DNA of 64,000 bases, from contig CAMDQH010000003.1 of NCBI GenBank assembly GCA_945905815.1, positions 1-64,000 of the forward strand, given 5' to 3'. The DNA is from Bacteriovorax stolpii (GTDB lineage Bacteria > Bdellovibrionota > Bacteriovoracia > Bacteriovoracales > Bacteriovoracaceae). Under the pieces are notes generated by a model. It worked only from the letters and a program-made list of their open reading frames with translations, was not told where the DNA came from and did no database searches. The translations under genes were made by a program, and so were the position numbers. Positions 14,257 to 21,910 of this stretch are shown piece by piece. How positions within the stretch are numbered: the stretch's first letter is position 1; the number at the start of each line of letters is the position of its first letter.

Positions 14257-15777
14257 TTAATCTTTTAATCCCACCACGTCAGTGATTTTTGAGCTGTTGT
14301 CATCTAATGTCTCAAGAGAGGCTACGGCACTTACACAATGATCAATCATTGATACAGCAGCAGGGCGATGGTTTCCGGAGTTCTTAACTCCTCCGAAAGG
14401 CATGCGTGCTGTTGCTCCAACGGTAGATCTGTTTAAGTTTAATAAACCAGCATCAATATCGCGTAGACATAATTTATAAATCTCAGTATCTCTAGTAAAA
14501 ACAGATGCGGCCAGACCGTATTCAGTACAGTTTGCAATTTGAATAGCTTCTTCAATATCATCGTAAGGAACAAAAAAACAGTTTGGCCCAAAAATTTCTT
14601 CCTGGATGAACTTTCCTTTCAGATCCGGTCTTTTAGCATAATGAATAGAAGGGGAGACGTAATGTCCTTCGAAACCAATATCGAGCTTACGAGGGGAAAC
14701 AATTTCTTCTGCACCTTCTTGTTTTCCGAAGTTACAGAATTCAAAATAAAGATTTTCGGCATGCTGATCAATGAGTGGACCCATAAATGGATCTGCTGAT
14801 TTCGTAGGGTGACCCACTTTAATTCTTTCAGTGAGAGATTTAAATTGTGAAATGAACTCCTGTTCGATTTTTCGATGAACTAGAATCATTGAAGTTGAAG
14901 TACATCTTTGCCCTGAAGTTAAAAAACATGCGCGTAGTAACTCAGGAAGTGCGTGAGAAATATTAGTATCATGGTGAATAATGGTGGAGTTTTTGCCACC
15001 CAACTCAAGGGCCACGAGTTTACCCATATCTTTGTAAGTGTTTTCAAGAATACGCAAACCAACACCACGCGAACCGGTAAAGAAAACTCCTCTAACACGT
15101 TTATCAATCGTTATTTTTCCAGCAGTCTGTCCTGTTCCGTTGATGAAGTTGATTACCCCTTCTGGAAATCCTGCTTGATGAAAACATTCAATCATTAGCT
15201 GTGCCGAATAGATGGTTTTCTCAGATGGTTTAAAAATGATTGAGTTTCCTGCCAGTAACGCAGATAAAATTTGGCCGTTCGCCAAATGGCACGGAAAGTT
15301 AAAGGGGCCTATTACGAAGCATGGGCCCAGTGGTTTATAAACCACATGCCCATCAATTTTTGGCATAACATCTTTAATTGTTTCTTGCTTGATTCTTTCA
15401 AGGGAGTCAGTGATGGTTACGGTTACCTTGCTATCGAGAGCAGCAGCCTCGGTTTTTGCTTCCCAAAGAGGTTTCCCGACTTCTAGGGCAAGGGCCATAG
15501 CAATTTCATCTTTGCGAGCTCGAACTGCTTCCTGATATTTTTTTAGATAAACAACTCTTTGATCAAAAGAAAGCTTTCTCCAAGCATCAAATCCCTTTTG
15601 TGCAGACTCAATAACTTTTTCGGTATGCTCGTAATAGACACCAGCTTCCCAAAGATTGAGTGTTAATTCTCCAGGACATGTTTTTAAAATTTTCTCTTGG
15701 ACCCCAACTAAAGCACTCGTGCCTTCAGGGTGAGAGAAACGTCCATTAAAGTAGTCACCTTTAAGTAACATCTGCAT
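14257..15777 (-). CDS. astD: Succinylglutamate-semialdehyde dehydrogenase AstD
   Basis: An aldehyde dehydrogenase of 506 residues that oxidises N-succinylglutamate semialdehyde in arginine catabolism (AST pathway). AstD-like landmarks are GPFNFPCHLANGQI (about 148), VALELGGKNS with the catalytic Glu (about 250), SGQRCTS with the nucleophilic Cys (about 286), and the tail FGGVKNSGNHRP. AAAGGAC precedes the ATG at 15777. It heads a leftward unit with MFS, rarD and an ABC ATPase. The other pathway genes seen are astA and a class III aminotransferase at 20.9-23.3 kb; astB and astE are not in this window. A role with another semialdehyde cannot be excluded. Confidence 0.8.
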   Translation of the reverse strand: MQMLLKGDYFNGRFSHPEGTSALVGVQEKILKTCPGELTLNLWEAGVYYEHTEKVIESAQKGFDAWRKLSFDQRVVYLKKYQEAVRARKDEIAMALALEVGKPLWEAKTEAAALDSKVTVTITDSLERIKQETIKDVMPKIDGHVVYKPLGPCFVIGPFNFPCHLANGQILSALLAGNSIIFKPSEKTIYSAQLMIECFHQAGFPEGVINFINGTGQTAGKITIDKRVRGVFFTGSRGVGLRILENTYKDMGKLVALELGGKNSTIIHHDTNISHALPELLRACFLTSGQRCTSTSMILVHRKIEQEFISQFKSLTERIKVGHPTKSADPFMGPLIDQHAENLYFEFCNFGKQEGAEEIVSPRKLDIGFEGHYVSPSIHYAKRPDLKGKFIQEEIFGPNCFFVPYDDIEEAIQIANCTEYGLAASVFTRDTEIYKLCLRDIDAGLLNLNRSTVGATARMPFGGVKNSGNHRPAAVSMIDHCVSAVASLETLDDNSSKITDVVGLKD

Positions 15778-15883
15778 AAAAGTCCTTTGAGTTTTAATGC
15801 CTCATTGTACAACTTTTGTTTTAAGAGTTACAGGATAATGCGGAGCTTCAGCTCAAAGATCAACTACCAAATAAGCAGAGTTT

Positions 15884-15892
15884 TGCTACAAT
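15884..15892 (+). promoter_or_regulatory. Extended -10 promoter for the DUF1338 gene
   Basis: TGCTACAAT is a good extended -10 element (TGn then TACAAT) with no convincing -35. It lies about 24 bases before ATG 15917, in the 139-base gap between the divergent astD and DUF1338 genes. Confidence 0.45.
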
Positions 15893-15916
15893 AGTGTCTC
15901 TTCAAGGAGCTATGTA

Positions 15917-16723
15917 ATGACAGTTAAAACCTTATCTGGTCTGTTGGACAAAATGTGGAAGGATTATGTTGAAATTAATCCTTTAGCGCAAAAAATTTCA
16001 GATCTTTTCATCCAAGATGGTGAAAGGGTTGAAAATGATCATATCGCTCTTAGGACCTTCAATCATCCACGCTTAAATATTGATGTGGTAGCACGGCCTT
16101 TCATTGAATCAGGTTATAAATACATTGGTGATTATCATTTTCCTGAGAAGAAACTTTATGCAAAACATTTCGAGCATGCTGATAAAAACGTCCCCAAAAT
16201 TTTCATCTCTGAATTAAAAATCGAAGAGCTTTCAACTAAAACACAAGTTTTAATAAATGGTCTCGTTGACCAAGTTCCAAAGGGCAAAGAGCTGGAGTTT
16301 GATTTTGTTTCCAGTGGTCGTCCTTGGAATGTCACAAGCCTGCAGTATCGAGAGCTCTTAAAGGAAAGTGATTATGCAGCTTGGGTTGCCGCTTTTGGAT
16401 ATCGGCCAAATCACTTCACTGTTTTAATAAATGCTCTGAAAAATTTTTCAGATATTGTTATTCTTAATGATTATTTGAAAAGCAAAGGCTTCAAGTTAAA
16501 TTCCAGCGGCGGGGAAGTTAAAGGCTCTAAAGAAGTTTATTTAGAGCAATCTTCTATCCTGGCAAATAATATTGAAGTGACTTTTCAAGATGCTAAATTA
16601 ACTGTTCCAGCATGTTTTTATGAATTTGCAAAAAGATATCCAATGAAAGATGGAACGCTTTATCAGGGATTTGTAGCAGCTTCGGCGGATAAAATTTTTG
16701 AGAGTACTAACAGCGGCCAGTAA
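15917..16723 (+). CDS. DUF1338 family metalloenzyme (HglS-like 2-oxoadipate dioxygenase/decarboxylase)
   Basis: A 268-residue single-domain member of DUF1338, whose characterised member HglS/YdcJ converts 2-oxoadipate to 2-hydroxyglutarate in lysine breakdown. Seen: ENDHIALRTF near residue 38 with a metal-ligand His, FISELKIEEL near 95, the central FGYRPNHFTVLIN with a second His (about 160-172), and VPACFYEFAKRYP near the end. Shorter than HglS, as in many Bdellovibrionota and chloroplast homologues. AAGGAG is ten bases before the ATG at 15917. It is encoded between astD and astA, so a role in amino-acid catabolism is likely; the substrate is not proven. Confidence 0.75.
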   Translation: MTVKTLSGLLDKMWKDYVEINPLAQKISDLFIQDGERVENDHIALRTFNHPRLNIDVVARPFIESGYKYIGDYHFPEKKLYAKHFEHADKNVPKIFISELKIEELSTKTQVLINGLVDQVPKGKELEFDFVSSGRPWNVTSLQYRELLKESDYAAWVAAFGYRPNHFTVLINALKNFSDIVILNDYLKSKGFKLNSSGGEVKGSKEVYLEQSSILANNIEVTFQDAKLTVPACFYEFAKRYPMKDGTLYQGFVAASADKIFESTNSGQ

Positions 16724-17083
16724 TTAGGCGCTCAAAACGTTTCGAATAGCAATCTCAAGATTTAAATAGTTAGGTTTGGTTAAGAGATCCGTGGCACCTA
16801 AATGATTTGCGATTTTTTTTAATTCTGATGATCCATGGCCAGTGTAGAAAATAAAAGGCATGTTGAATCCAAGCTTTCTTGCCGTTTCAATAAATTGTAG
16901 TCCATCCATCACTGGCATTTTGATATCAGAAACGACGCAGTCAATCTTCTGGGACCTAAGAATCGCTAAACCCTCTTCACCATTATTCGCTATATAAATA
17001 TGATGAGCTTCATCTTCTAAAAGCTCTTTCATGCTCCATGATAGATCAACTTCATCATCTACTATTAATAGGTTTCCTTTCAT
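16724..17083 (-). CDS. Stand-alone response regulator receiver domain
   Basis: A 119-residue CheY-like receiver without output domain. The acidic pair is in LLIVDDE, the phosphoacceptor Asp in VVSDIKMPVMDG (about 53), the switch Thr in FYTGHG and the Lys in LLTKPN, so the site looks intact. It is the last gene of the leftward envelope cluster starting with YceI, 47 bases after the small lipoprotein. Its stop directly abuts the convergent DUF1338 stop. No histidine kinase is in the window; a partner could be encoded elsewhere. Confidence 0.85.
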   Translation of the reverse strand: MKGNLLIVDDEVDLSWSMKELLEDEAHHIYIANNGEEGLAILRSQKIDCVVSDIKMPVMDGLQFIETARKLGFNMPFIFYTGHGSSELKKIANHLGATDLLTKPNYLNLEIAIRNVLSA

Positions 17084-17130
17084 GAGCCATATTTAACACA
17101 GGTGAAAATGCGAGGAAACGTCTATTAACT

Positions 17131-17313
17131 TTATTCGGCTTGTTTTTGACTTAAGTTTTCTAAAGGTTCAGGATAAATCCGTAAATGATCTTCTTCCAGT
17201 TTGGCAGCAAACTCTATTAAGACATAATCATCCGAAAAATCAGGGTTTTGAGTCTTTTTTGAGCACCCGATAGCGACAATTAAAAACGCAAATATTAATG
17301 TTTTGTTAAACAT
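17131..17313 (-). CDS. Small lipoprotein, 60 residues
   Basis: Begins MFNKTLIFAFLIVAIGC, a lipoprotein signal with Cys at position 17, then about 43 polar residues. It overlaps the 3' end of the HAMP-protein gene by eight bases, so it is likely translated with it. No family recognised. The mature chain is too short for a catalytic domain; an anchoring or regulatory role is possible. Confidence 0.65.
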   Translation of the reverse strand: MFNKTLIFAFLIVAIGCSKKTQNPDFSDDYVLIEFAAKLEEDHLRIYPEPLENLSQKQAE

Positions 17314-17749
17314 CTCGCTTTTCCTTAAGGGCCTTTACCAGAGGTTCAAGTTCTTGAAAAAAATCAGATTGTCTTAACTTAAAATCATTTGAGTCTTCTG
17401 AAATAACGCTTAGCTGTTTCTTGAGTTTGTATATAGGTCCAGCAATTCGGTGGGAGATTATAAAGCCTACTCCTATCAATAAAAAGAAGTTGAAAATGGC
17501 CAGACCAATAAATAAAGTATCAAGATCGTGCTGTTGATTTTTTATAAAATTAAAGAAAACATGCCCGTCTGGGATTCCTACATTCAAAGCTTTTTCTTTT
17601 AATCGATAGAAGAAAAGATATGTCGTTAAATATAGGCTCGTAGTTGAAATTAAAAACAAACCAATAAAATAACTTAGCAATTTAAATTGAAATTTAGGAT
17701 TGATCAGAATATTAGTTATTTTCCTAGGAGAAGGATCTACTTTGTTCAT
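17306..17749 (-). CDS. Two-helix membrane protein with HAMP-like segment
   Basis: About 147 residues. One hydrophobic helix near 27-48 and a second near 78-100 frame a short periplasmic loop (about 30 residues). The second helix leads into SHRIAGPIYKLKKQL, the characteristic HAMP entry sequence. The chain ends soon after the HAMP helices, with no kinase, cyclase or methyl-accepting domain. The start is ATG 17749 with GGAG upstream, two bases before the stop of the previous gene; the longer frame to 17767 is inside that gene. It may pass a periplasmic signal to a separate partner such as the receiver protein downstream (inference). Confidence 0.7.
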   Translation of the reverse strand: MNKVDPSPRKITNILINPKFQFKLLSYFIGLFLISTTSLYLTTYLFFYRLKEKALNVGIPDGHVFFNFIKNQQHDLDTLFIGLAIFNFFLLIGVGFIISHRIAGPIYKLKKQLSVISEDSNDFKLRQSDFFQELEPLVKALKEKRDV

Positions 17750-17750
17750 A

Positions 17751-18785
17751 TTAAAACTCCTTACCAATTCCTAGACCCCAGAATGTTTGCTCTTGCGTTA
17801 TATATTTTCCAAGTTCTGTTTGTAGGTACCATTTATTAAACTGCCACCTGGAATGAAGAGAGGCCATAAAGGCGAGAGAAGATTCCTGGTCTACTGAGAA
17901 ACCTGTCTGAATGGGTGTCGTTAGTTCTTGGACGGAATAAATCATAGGCAGTTTAATGCCTATTCTCGATTTTGAAGATGAAACAATAATAGAGGCCCCA
18001 GGTCCACCCTTAACACCATAAGCAGGAATGTTCGATTGCTGGTAGTTATCAATCGAGTCCTGATCGTTGTTTTTTACACCACCACTCCCATAGAGAACAC
18101 AACCATCAAAGTAGAAATGATATTGATAGTTCTCATAGCCCAGCTCACCACCAGCACAAAAGCCTTTATTTGTAATGATGAGACCTGCTTCCGCTCCCGT
18201 GTTGCTTTTAAGAGTTGCATCTTGTTGCCAGCTTACGTAATGAACAAACCAGCTGGTTTTAAATTTGTAGATTTTGTTTGTGAGATACTGCCTATGGGCC
18301 ATTATTTCATCATTGTGCTTATCTACTTTTCCTTCGCGGAATTCAAGTTCACTCAATATCTTACTGTACAGGCCGAAAGACTTATTATCTTTTTCTACAA
18401 GAATTGAGTCTTCATTGTAGCCTTTAAGAATTTCTCCATAGCTGGTAAAAAGATTCCAATATAGGACCTTTAAGGCTTCTGGGTATCTGTCACCATCAAT
18501 CGTGTCTCCACGTTTGATGGCCATCATGAGAGATTGATTTTGATTCAAGTAGAACTTTTTGACTAATCTTATATTTAGTTTAATATCCTGCCGAAAAAAG
18601 CCTAGTTTCCTTAGTGAATACGAAATTTCGATTAACTCATTCCTAGAGTAATTTTTCTGCATATTACTTCTGTAAATGTCAGAAATGCTCCTATAGTCTT
18701 TATTGTTAAAGGCTCTTTGAAGCTCACTTACTGCGGCTTGCGAAGATGACATGAATAAAGACAAAAATAATGTGATTAAAACCAT
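17751..18785 (-). CDS. Exported protein with helical N-terminus and beta-barrel-like C-terminus, unknown function
   Basis: 344 residues with a signal peptide (MVLITLFLSLFMSSSQA). Residues 20-170 look helical and repeat-like. Residues 180-344 alternate short amphipathic strands (GLIITNKGFCAGGELGYENY, YHFYFDGCVLYGSG) and end in WGLGIGKEF; a terminal Phe is the usual outer-membrane barrel insertion signal. No family recognised. It overlaps the haem-motif barrel gene by ten bases and is followed by the HAMP gene two bases after its stop, so it belongs to the same coupled operon. Outer-membrane location is inferred from the strand pattern only. Confidence 0.6.
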   Translation of the reverse strand: MVLITLFLSLFMSSSQAAVSELQRAFNNKDYRSISDIYRSNMQKNYSRNELIEISYSLRKLGFFRQDIKLNIRLVKKFYLNQNQSLMMAIKRGDTIDGDRYPEALKVLYWNLFTSYGEILKGYNEDSILVEKDNKSFGLYSKILSELEFREGKVDKHNDEIMAHRQYLTNKIYKFKTSWFVHYVSWQQDATLKSNTGAEAGLIITNKGFCAGGELGYENYQYHFYFDGCVLYGSGGVKNNDQDSIDNYQQSNIPAYGVKGGPGASIIVSSSKSRIGIKLPMIYSVQELTTPIQTGFSVDQESSLAFMASLHSRWQFNKWYLQTELGKYITQEQTFWGLGIGKEF

Positions 18786-19924
18786 AAATGTGTCTGGAGC
18801 AAATACATCCAGCTATCTCGGGTTGAGGATTTAGTTGCAAAACTTCTTGTGTCGTAAACGTCCGCGCGAAGTTCTATCCGTTGACTCAAAAAATATTGAA
18901 CCCCAGGACCCCACCTTAATGTGTAATCGTCTTGTTTTATATCTCGGTTGAAGTATTCAATATTAGCTAAAAAGTATAATCCTCTCCACGGGCGGAGATA
19001 GGTTTGCAAAAGACCAAAGCGAGCAGTCGTATCATCTGATCCATTTTCAGTTTTTTTATTCGTTTGACCAAGTTCGGCTAAAATTGACGAACCTTCTTTA
19101 AGATTCAAGCGGGTATGAGCAGAGTATGAGAGCAGTTTCAAATATTCGTTTTGTGAACTCATAACTGAGGCACCGATACGATGGATGCCGAATACCGTTT
19201 TTTCGAGCATGACGCTTCCACCTTTCATTCTGAGGTCAGCGTCTTGAGACAAATTTCCAACAAAGCCCTGAGCTCCTAGTTCCCAGTCCTGACCGATATA
19301 GTGTGCTGTTACACCATGAACCTGATCATTCTGAGTAACCTGAGGGGAAACTCTTGAGAAGGCGATATGCTCTATAACCTTAATCCCAAAAACTTTATCC
19401 ATTAGCCCTGCATAGAGACCAAACTTTGGAGTAAAGCGGTAGCCAACGTAATGTTCACGACTTCTCCACTCAGAAGACTTTGTTCCCTTGGGAGTCTCTG
19501 ATGGTAGGGGAGCGTATCCATAATTTAAAACAGAAATAAATTTGTCATTCTCACCAAACTTTAGAATCACTCTGCCATCTAATTGCATATTGATCCACTT
19601 AGCTTCTTCATTTTCAGAAGACCCAGGATTTCTTACAACTCTAAAGCCACGATAATTCACTTGGGTTCTCAGCCACTCTTGTTTGGGCTTACGAAAGAGA
19701 AACCCAGACATGTAGGCCACTTTTTCTTCATCCCATGATTTTGGCGTTAATGCCGTCGAACTAATTGCTGTCGCAGATACAACACGGCCATAATCATTTA
19801 GTGGTCCGCCACCAAATGGATTGAAGTGGCAATTTAGGCATGATGTATATCCATGCCCTATAAAATTTGAATAGGAGTAAGCATTAACTGAAAAGAGTGT
19901 GAGAAGTAGGAGAATATATTTCAT
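18776..19924 (-). CDS. Outer-membrane barrel-like protein with N-terminal c-type haem motif
   Basis: About 382 residues. A signal peptide (MKYILLLLTLFSVNAYS) is followed at once by GHGYTSCLNCHFNPFGGGPL, holding one CxxCH haem-attachment motif about 28 residues into the precursor. The remainder is a series of amphipathic strands (for example KFISVLNYGYAPLP, HYVGYRFTPKFGLYAGL, IELRADVYDTR) and ends in LLQTHLWF with terminal Phe. A 'C..CH..P.GGG..N.YG' start joined to a porin-like domain occurs in several deltaproteobacterial-type genomes without known function. The ATG at 19924 overlaps the cytochrome lipoprotein stop (ATGA). Haem could be an electron relay at the barrel mouth; this is inference. 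Confidence 0.7.
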   Translation of the reverse strand: MKYILLLLTLFSVNAYSYSNFIGHGYTSCLNCHFNPFGGGPLNDYGRVVSATAISSTALTPKSWDEEKVAYMSGFLFRKPKQEWLRTQVNYRGFRVVRNPGSSENEEAKWINMQLDGRVILKFGENDKFISVLNYGYAPLPSETPKGTKSSEWRSREHYVGYRFTPKFGLYAGLMDKVFGIKVIEHIAFSRVSPQVTQNDQVHGVTAHYIGQDWELGAQGFVGNLSQDADLRMKGGSVMLEKTVFGIHRIGASVMSSQNEYLKLLSYSAHTRLNLKEGSSILAELGQTNKKTENGSDDTTARFGLLQTYLRPWRGLYFLANIEYFNRDIKQDDYTLRWGPGVQYFLSQRIELRADVYDTRSFATKSSTRDSWMYLLQTHLWF

Positions 19925-20292
19925 GGGATTTCTGTTACCCATTTAACTAAGGCGTTGTATTCGGCATCTGGCAGAGAGCCTCCACTAGGAGGCATGTTTG
20001 AAGAGACTTGGCCATTATTTACGATTCGTACTATCAGTTCGGAAGTGGCCGGTTGCCCTGTTATAACAAGACCATCGGCAACCCAATCAGCATTTGATTT
20101 AAATTCGGCCCACCGATCATGTTTATGATCGTGGCAACTGACACATCTATCTTGAAGAATGAAGTATGCCTTACTGAAATTTGGATCTGATTCATTTAGT
20201 TCCACTGGGCCATATCTGCCTTTATCGCCAGAATTAGAATTATAGTCCTGACACGAAGATAGAATTAAGACAAAGAAAAAAAAATATTTCAT
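19921..20292 (-). CDS. Monohaem cytochrome c lipoprotein
   Basis: 123 residues. The N-terminus MKYFFFFVLILSSCQD is a lipoprotein signal with Cys 14. The haem motif CVSCH (about 50-54) and the distal Met loop SNMPPSGGSLPDAEYNALVKWV near the C-terminus make a class I cytochrome c fold. It is presumably anchored to a membrane on the periplasmic side and carries electrons. It overlaps YceI upstream and the haem-motif barrel downstream by four bases each, so the three are made together. Confidence 0.85.
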   Translation of the reverse strand: MKYFFFFVLILSSCQDYNSNSGDKGRYGPVELNESDPNFSKAYFILQDRCVSCHDHKHDRWAEFKSNADWVADGLVITGQPATSELIVRIVNNGQVSSNMPPSGGSLPDAEYNALVKWVTEIP

Positions 20293-20774
20293 CTAGCTTT
20301 GAATTGAAGCGCGACTTCTATTGCAACAAGATTGTCCACACCAACGCCCAGGTATTCAGCTTTTGGTAGAGAGAAATCAGACGCTTTAACAATAAGTTTG
20401 GCCAGAATCTCTGAGCCCTTTTCAACATATACGATAGTAACGGGATTTTTTTTACCGTTTACTTCTAATTGTGCTGTTCCCTTACCGCCAGACGCTTTAA
20501 GGTTTGAAAGAGTTGCTTTAGGATTTGTGCTTGATTGCATATGCTTCCAAAAATGTTCATCTCTTAAATCAATTCCGGTTTTAAATGATTCAATGCTGAC
20601 GGAAATTTTATCTGCCGTAAAAACACCATTTTCTTTAATAACATTTCCTTTAGCTTTTTTACTTACAGCTTGGAATGAACCTGCTGGAGACAGTGTAACA
20701 AAAAGAGTGATTTTTTCTTCTGCAAAAGAAGGAATGGAAGATAGGAGAAGTATAACCATCATGATAAATTTCAT
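20289..20774 (-). CDS. YceI family periplasmic protein
   Basis: 161 residues with a signal peptide ending near SFAEE. It has the YceI-like lipocalin layout: FVTLSPAGSFQAVSKKAKGNVI, IDLRDEHFWKHMQSST (the 'L R D.H....' motif, about 75-92), NPKATLS and the C-terminal VDNLVAIEVALQFKA. YceI proteins bind isoprenoids such as ubiquinone-like lipids in the periplasm. AAAGG precedes the ATG. It is the first gene of the leftward cytochrome/barrel cluster, and in other bacteria YceI genes also sit beside cytochromes. Confidence 0.85.
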   Translation of the reverse strand: MKFIMMVILLLSSIPSFAEEKITLFVTLSPAGSFQAVSKKAKGNVIKENGVFTADKISVSIESFKTGIDLRDEHFWKHMQSSTNPKATLSNLKASGGKGTAQLEVNGKKNPVTIVYVEKGSEILAKLIVKASDFSLPKAEYLGVGVDNLVAIEVALQFKAR

Positions 20775-20854
20775 GAGCGACCTTTGATAATATTTTTATT
20801 CTATTTGACCAAAGGTGCGGTCGCATTAACAAGGGTAAAATCAGGGGAGACGTG

Positions 20855-21910
20855 TTATTTTTTTTTAGTAACTTTCTTCTTTTTAACTTCTTTGGCACGA
20901 AATGAAACAAAACGGATTTTATCCCCGAGTCGCAGCTTGAGCGCTGCAGCAGTGACCCCTGAGATTTTATAACCACCGGATTTTAATTTAACTACTGTCC
21001 CAAGAACCGCTCGAAAATTTGAACTCATCCTAGCAATAATAAAGATTTCTGATTTAAGCGACTTATCAGATATTTCCTGAATTTCACCAACCACACTCTC
21101 TTTAATCGAACGGATATTATCCAGATCTGCAATTAATACGGGGCCAGGTTCAAAAATTCCTACCATTCCAGAGAATTTAAAACCTTCTTGCTCAAGAATT
21201 CGCTTCGCCGGTTCCGTATTTGGGTGAACTTTACCAATTACATGTGCTGCGTCTTCAGGTAGCAGATTGGCAATAATAGGATATTTGGGCATCATCTCTT
21301 CAATGAATTTTTTATTTTTTACATAAAGATAATCTGCTGTTGGAAAGTCAATTTTGAAAAAATGCTTCCCGACTGCATCCCAGAAAGGGGAATGACCTGA
21401 ATCGTTTACCATTCCTCTCATTTCCGCAATAACTTGGTCTTCAAAGAATTTTCGATTTTCGGCTATGAAAAGAAATCGTGACAGGGAAAGAAACCGACCA
21501 TTTTGAGAATTTCTAAATTCGGGATGTAAAAAGAGCGAGCAAATTTCTGCAGGGCCATTGTGAATAAAATGAAAGTGCAGGGAGGTAATATCATTTTTCA
21601 TATTAATCATTTTTGATTCATGATGAGTTTTCTCAACACGATAAAAATAATAAGGCTCAAATCCGCCAATTTTAGAAATGATGGCACAAACACCGACAAT
21701 CTTACCCGTAAATAACTCTTCCATTACGAACAGATAATCTTCACCTCTTGCGACTTCTTCACGGTTGGTAAAACTTCTTTCAGACATCCGGATCCGCTTT
21801 TTAAGGACCTCCGGATCTTTTGGCAATGATGTTAAACCGTGTCCAGATTTCTCCAGCAGTTCCATCAGGCCATCAAGATCTTTTCCCTCAATCGGGCGGA
21901 TAATGAACAT
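20855..21910 (-). CDS. astA: Arginine N-succinyltransferase AstA
   Basis: 351 residues. The N-terminus FIIRPIEGKDLDGLMELLEKSG and segments AEICSLFLHPEFRNSQNGRFLSLSRFLF, IAEMRG and FWDAVGKHFF are typical of AstA, which succinylates arginine with succinyl-CoA as first step of the AST pathway. The last 15 residues are unusually basic (FRAKEVKKKKVTKKK). The start lies two bases after the aminotransferase stop, so both form one leftward unit. AstD is encoded separately at 14.3 kb. Confidence 0.9.
   Translation of the reverse strand: MFIIRPIEGKDLDGLMELLEKSGHGLTSLPKDPEVLKKRIRMSERSFTNREEVARGEDYLFVMEELFTGKIVGVCAIISKIGGFEPYYFYRVEKTHHESKMINMKNDITSLHFHFIHNGPAEICSLFLHPEFRNSQNGRFLSLSRFLFIAENRKFFEDQVIAEMRGMVNDSGHSPFWDAVGKHFFKIDFPTADYLYVKNKKFIEEMMPKYPIIANLLPEDAAHVIGKVHPNTEPAKRILEQEGFKFSGMVGIFEPGPVLIADLDNIRSIKESVVGEIQEISDKSLKSEIFIIARMSSNFRAVLGTVVKLKSGGYKISGVTAAALKLRLGDKIRFVSFRAKEVKKKKVTKKK

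Follow-up and report, generated by a model that had tools for sequence, protein, structure and literature searches.

What is the function of a seven-gene cluster from Bacteriovorax stolpii in which a lipocalin, two proteins with haem c motifs and two putative barrels are encoded next to a receiver domain? The cluster (16724-20774, all genes on the minus strand) belongs to a 64,000-nt stretch of genomic DNA (GCA_945905815.1, contig CAMDQH010000003.1, positions 1 to 64,000; hereafter the window), and all seven of its reading frames, A to G, were found at the coordinates given below. The initial annotation regarded six of the genes as overlapping or no more than two bases apart, and as one translational unit. 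Both statements hold for A to F: with the likelier starts of C and E, the junction gaps are -4 (A-B), -4 (B-C), -10 (C-D), +1 (D-E) and -8 (E-F) bases, so that a single translational unit can extend from A to F. The loosest member of the set is G, which starts 47 bases past F. Upstream, A is separated from astA by 80 bases; downstream, an HGLS family gene on the opposite strand faces G. Within the window's genus the operon is placed between astC-astA and the HGLS-family/aldehyde dehydrogenase genes of arginine catabolism (14257-21910 in the window), and in other relatives it is located elsewhere. A scan for sigma-70-type promoters and terminators gave a number of sites not above that in shuffled sequence. 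A phage or plasmid origin of gene C was considered and rejected, as no phage or plasmid match, including any in PHROGs, was found for it.

Gene A (20289..20774) encodes a periplasmic lipocalin of the YceI (polyisoprenoid/quinone-binding) family with a signal peptide. It matches the Pfam YceI domain (E=3.7e-9), and its profile matches the polyisoprenoid-binding proteins 5w2x, 2fgs and 1y0g in the PDB. The product of gene B (19921..20292) is a monohaem class-I-type cytochrome c lipoprotein (Pfam Cytochrome_CBB3, 7.7e-8) with a single CxxCH. The positions invariant in 20 homologues of B comprise the lipobox C14, the CxxCH at 50-54 and M100-P101, and this Met-Pro pair fits a distal Met ligand of the haem. 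C also has one CxxCH, and the expectation of two haem c proteins is supported. A search of the window's genome for PF01578 (cytochrome-c maturation) returned no match. The idea that this genome lacks cytochrome-c maturation was nevertheless rejected: the gene that precedes a CcsA-type cytochrome-c assembly gene in relatives is cut by a contig end (G000 contig C36, bases 3-77), and the apparent deficiency is thus due to an assembly gap.

Gene C (18776..19924; 382 aa from the likelier start at 19924, its ORF opening at 19942) encodes a predicted fusion of a monohaem cytochrome with a 16-strand porin. The AlphaFold model (pLDDT 87.9) shows 16 strands behind an N-terminal CxxCH segment, and the nearest structures retrieved by Foldseek are general and phosphate-type porins, including OprP/OprO (2o4v, 4rjw; TM ~0.54-0.59). 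No sequence-based homology of C to any solved structure was found, and its only Pfam match, to OMP_b-brl (2.1e-4), is weak and below the cut-off. The CxxCH is kept in every full-length homologue examined (loci L031-L150 and the window), and the likewise invariant M119 and H192 are candidates for the distal haem ligand. One C-family barrel of 343 aa (L162:3591-4622) has an N-terminal region without any CxxCH and has seemingly lost its haem. Gene D (17751..18785), which overlaps C by 10 bases, is predicted to encode an all-helical N-terminal domain of ~170 residues followed by an outer-membrane barrel of about 8 strands (pLDDT 91.7), with OmpX, NspA and the OmpA barrel as the best Foldseek matches; no informative Pfam match was obtained for D, E or F. 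Structure prediction thus gave a barrel for each of the two proteins presumed at the outset to reside in the outer membrane.

Members of the C family are present in 178 of the 291 Bdellovibrionota genomes sampled. When 84,980 species genomes were scanned, nearly all of the best 80 loci bore Bdellovibrionota-type or unplaced MAG names (one is labelled Nitrosovibrio yet has the same gene set). The nearest relatives are MAGs named Bacteriovoracaceae/Halobacteriovorax, and the assignment to the phylum Bdellovibrionota follows the names of the records that were matched. Synteny was counted over 67 non-redundant C loci with enough flank. In 63 of them the next gene downstream of C is D, and B (54 loci), A (45 loci) or at least one of these two (60 loci) is found nearby. 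The conserved core consists of the four genes A-B-C-D. With 4 YceI genes in the 3.0 Mb of the window's genome, about 2% of random loci would be expected to have a YceI gene within 6.5 kb, as compared to the 45 of 67 observed.

A second subfamily, C2, is about 21% identical to C and is aligned with it by hhalign at 100% probability. Its loci (L157-L160, L163-L171) share the motif FPEMIRHGYxNCxACHVSPxGGG. In 12 of 13 loci the gene immediately before C2 encodes a YceI protein, often with a four-base overlap between the two, and a gene for a dihaem cytochrome-c lipoprotein is usually close by. Since YceI and a cytochrome accompany C2 in a different gene order, the association is not due to chance, and the recurrence of the three families in another arrangement makes a functional link strong. 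Homologues of the operon's genes are thus regularly co-located across Bdellovibrionota, the opposite of what would be seen if the window's arrangement were peculiar to it.

The reading that we favor, with moderate confidence, is that the A-B-C-D core constitutes an outer-membrane redox relay. C would be a 16-strand porin whose pore is sealed towards the periplasm by the N-terminal domain of the protein, to which a single haem is presumably attached, and D would be its obligate barrel partner. B, a lipid-tethered cytochrome c, would contact C from the periplasm and exchange electrons with its haem, while A may carry a periplasmic quinone or isoprenoid, a cargo that the relay would reduce, oxidise or protect. 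Electrons would most likely move inward, as in Cyc2: some small reduced species (Fe(II) being the obvious candidate) would enter the barrel and be oxidised at C, with the electron passing to B and from there to respiration.

The same components may serve the protection of the envelope rather than respiration, a reading that we consider unlikely albeit not far-fetched. The haem-porin, B and a quinone-loaded YceI would then form a protective shuttle, which would maintain an isoprenoid antioxidant in its reduced state or clear the outer membrane of lipid peroxyl radicals or Fe(II). This would agree with the linkage of YceI and a cytochrome at both C and C2 loci and with the detoxification precedent of YceI and cytochrome b561 (PMC9113575), the shuttle being likened to the BcnA/LcoA lipocalin-cytochrome pair of Burkholderia. 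On the other hand, no cytochrome b561 was found among the operon's proteins, the BcnA/LcoA system has no porin-bound haem, and A is absent from about a third of the loci, whereas D is almost always present.

In about half of the loci C is also accompanied by four further genes, T1-T4 (33-36 of 67). T1 has one CxxCH and weak PSD2/PSCyt matches, T2 has a Tat signal and a weak DUF1501 match, and T3 and T4 are lipoproteins; taken together, the weak matches of the set are to PSD2/DUF1585, PSCyt3, PSCyt2 and DUF1501. As carbohydrates have been proposed as the targets of PSCyt gene products (PMC5615132), C and D might belong to a surface carbohydrate or polymer-processing module together with these Tat-exported DUF1501-like and PSCyt/PSD proteins. 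The window's genome does contain a complete T1-T3-T2-T4 operon, away from the C operon (L186:941-8620, G000 contig C95). However, half of the loci, including that of the window, have no T genes nearby, and the DUF1501/PSCyt proteins are themselves uncharacterised, which leaves this reading improbable in our view. An apparent absence of T2 from the window's genome, suggested by one query, was rejected when a T1 profile and HMMs retrieved the whole T operon.

Where the T genes are present, the lipobox of their lipoproteins co-varies with a protein related to E. Gene E (17306..17749) encodes a membrane protein with a HAMP-like linker (147 aa from the likelier start at 17749, its ORF opening at a TTG at 17767). 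It had been annotated as a HAMP-only protein; the HAMP-like motif is indeed there, together with a partial NCBIfam match to the TM-HAMP region of one kinase family, but no Pfam match at E<=1 was obtained, and the protein is not an orphaned sensor. A PDB search with E returned no match. In alignments, E covers the C-terminal half of 275-290 aa proteins that have a signal peptidase II as their N-terminal half (Pfam Peptidase_A8, E=1.3e-15), and it resembles the half left over from such a fusion. In loci with an LspA-E fusion (e.g. L058:8504-9346, L049:1804-2676, L195:7463-9421), the signal peptides of T3 and T4 end in [FY][NT][HQ]C, and in loci without it their lipoboxes are canonical or FNNC-like. 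This co-variation extends over 51 of 51 loci (19 with and 32 without the fusion, one fused ORF having been corrected), which are related by descent and are therefore not 51 independent events; on the C tree, the fusion and the lipobox type change five times each. The lipobox of B in the same loci is canonical (18 of 18), and the sampled fusion-carrying genomes also encode a separate LspA of typical length. Overall, these patterns suggest that the LspA-E fusion is a peptidase dedicated to a particular lipobox.

In one genus, LspA-E and C are joined in one reading frame of 654 or 652 aa, with the signal peptide of C kept inside (L194:8630-10594, L195:7463-9421). This ties E to C, and as a matter of maturation rather than signaling. 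Additional LspA proteins with E-like C-terminal halves are encoded elsewhere in the respective genomes (L188:8071-9027, L190:8063-8923, L192:7608-8495, L193:7939-8829), Bdellovibrio-like ones with FNNC-type T lipoboxes included. T3 and T4 of contig C95 do not have the [FY][NT][HQ]C lipobox, consistent with the short E of the window.

The remaining genes are F (17131..17313), a 60-aa lipoprotein with the canonical lipobox AIGC and with homologues after E in several relatives, and G (16724..17083), a stand-alone receiver domain (Pfam Response_reg, 6.6e-23). A lone receiver beside the operon is confined to the window and its near relatives (L031/L072, L071, L073, L074); several other matches of G are long proteins, at least one of which (L066) is a sensor kinase that itself contains a receiver. 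The initial annotation had spoken of signaling pieces without a kinase, and indeed no histidine kinase was found within the operon. Its view of all seven genes as one system with signaling parts was not supported: a stand-alone G is restricted to near relatives, F is near C in only 8 of 67 loci, and E (27 of 67) corresponds to the C-terminal part of an LspA fusion. E, F and G are lineage-specific additions to the core.

Of the proposed electron or redox-sensing conduit, the electron conduit is plausible in outline, while the sensing and signaling part is weak. In such a device the state of the haem in B or C would be read by E and passed to the receiver G. The HAMP-like stretch of E, the true receiver domain of G and their possible co-transcription in the window would fit, but with a lone G limited to near relatives, no kinase nearby, E occurring elsewhere as the C-terminal part of a fusion with LspA, and core loci without E and G being common, we consider this scheme very improbable. 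Least credible of all is a purely structural haem that plugs the porin of C without electron transfer, since a second cytochrome c is constantly co-located in two subfamilies, even though the prediction is good for the porin fold and not for the role of the haem.

The redox relay may be part of something larger. As a tentative and rather doubtful extension, Bdellovibrionota could have an undescribed outer-membrane electron system in which the haem-porin, the small barrel, the cytochrome lipoprotein and the quinone-carrying YceI work together with Tat-exported DUF1501/PSCyt proteins. The lipoproteins of the latter would be processed by a signal peptidase II dedicated to them, which would recognise [FY][NT][HQ]C as a private lipobox in place of [LVI][ASTVI][GAS]C. 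More firmly, the operon is apparently an undescribed, conserved envelope redox operon, a variant of the fused cytochrome-porin kind. Outer-membrane electron transfer is hardly discussed for this phylum: the papers listed in searches of an open-access collection do not treat such transfer, Cyc2 or YceI in Bdellovibrio in their titles and abstracts. If the relay is real, monohaem cytochrome-porins would extend beyond Cyc2-type iron oxidisers, and a divergent branch of them would be common in the outer membranes of a phylum that includes many predatory bacteria. YceI lipocalins would be tied to an outer-membrane haem, making their electron partner testable, and the uncharacterised DUF1501/PSCyt proteins would be placed in a redox context. 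The duplicated LspA and the atypical lipobox, which co-vary, would together represent an orthogonal lipoprotein-maturation pair.

Several known systems share individual features with this one. In planctomycete-type PSCyt/PSD/DUF1501 sets, the resemblance is limited to the weak matches of T1-T4 beside C in about half of the loci; none are at the window's locus, and a haem-porin and an LspA fusion are linked with them here. The MtrAB, PioAB and Pcc porin-multihaem complexes also combine a barrel and a cytochrome across the outer membrane, but their cytochrome is a multihaem protein distinct from the 26-strand barrel that houses it, whereas the single haem of C is part of a fusion with a barrel of 16 strands. 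A conduit of the MtrAB type was rejected, as B and C have one CxxCH each. YceI proteins are binders of ubiquinone-8/isoprenoids and have a cytochrome b561 as partner in another system (PMC9113575), namely BcnA/LcoA, where the YceI lipocalin is likewise genetically tied to a cytochrome; whereas that cytochrome is an inner-membrane b561, the haem c motifs here belong to a lipoprotein and to an outer-membrane porin.

The defining features of Cyc2 are a single CxxCH, a porin of 16 strands, and the motifs AxPxFAR[QK][TY] and PxL (PMC8406198). Like Cyc2 and Cyt572, which are fused monohaem cytochrome-porins (iron oxidases), C combines an N-terminal CxxCH domain with a 16-strand OprO/OprP-like porin. 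Its single CxxCH is near the N-terminus, after the signal peptide, as in Cyc2, and its length is 382-388 aa against a Cyc2 length criterion of at least 365 aa. FAR[QK][TY] is absent upstream of the CxxCH of C, where the consensus is AYPxFIGHGY and only A-x-P-x-F is common with Cyc2. The PxL four residues after the CxxCH is absent as well; C reads CH-YNPxGNGPL, with P-L further downstream and no spacer residue. Because both motifs are missing, C is not classed as Cyc2. Unlike Cyc2, it has the extra invariant Y-x-x-C-x-x-C-H...G-x-G...DYGR, M119 and H192, has YceI and a second barrel as its partners, and is hosted by Bdellovibrionota. To our knowledge, this phylum is not known for lithotrophy, and we know of no Cyc2 pathway that includes YceI.

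For a direct comparison, Cyc2-type plasmid genes were fetched with a short probe sequence; all five aligned hits have the expected AxPxF...QTGxxCxxCH pattern. The segment A-x-P-x-F-(7)-C-x-x-C-H-...-L-[NT]-x-Y-G-R of C aligns with these proteins in one register. In hhalign, C matched the Cyc2-type profile with a probability of 82% (score 49.5), and the deeper profile of C and C2 combined with 92% (score 58.2), in each case over only ~40 columns of the cytochrome; a control alignment of B and C covered only 8 residues, at the CxxCH. No sequence alignment was obtained between the barrel of C and that of Cyc2. The haem segment of C is thus probably homologous to the Cyc2-type segment, and the Cyc2-type plasmid genes mostly adjoin a c-type cytochrome gene, as C adjoins B. 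The statement of the initial annotation that no named system has this composition remains true for the exact set of seven genes, but C is architecturally close to the Cyc2 fused cytochrome-porins.
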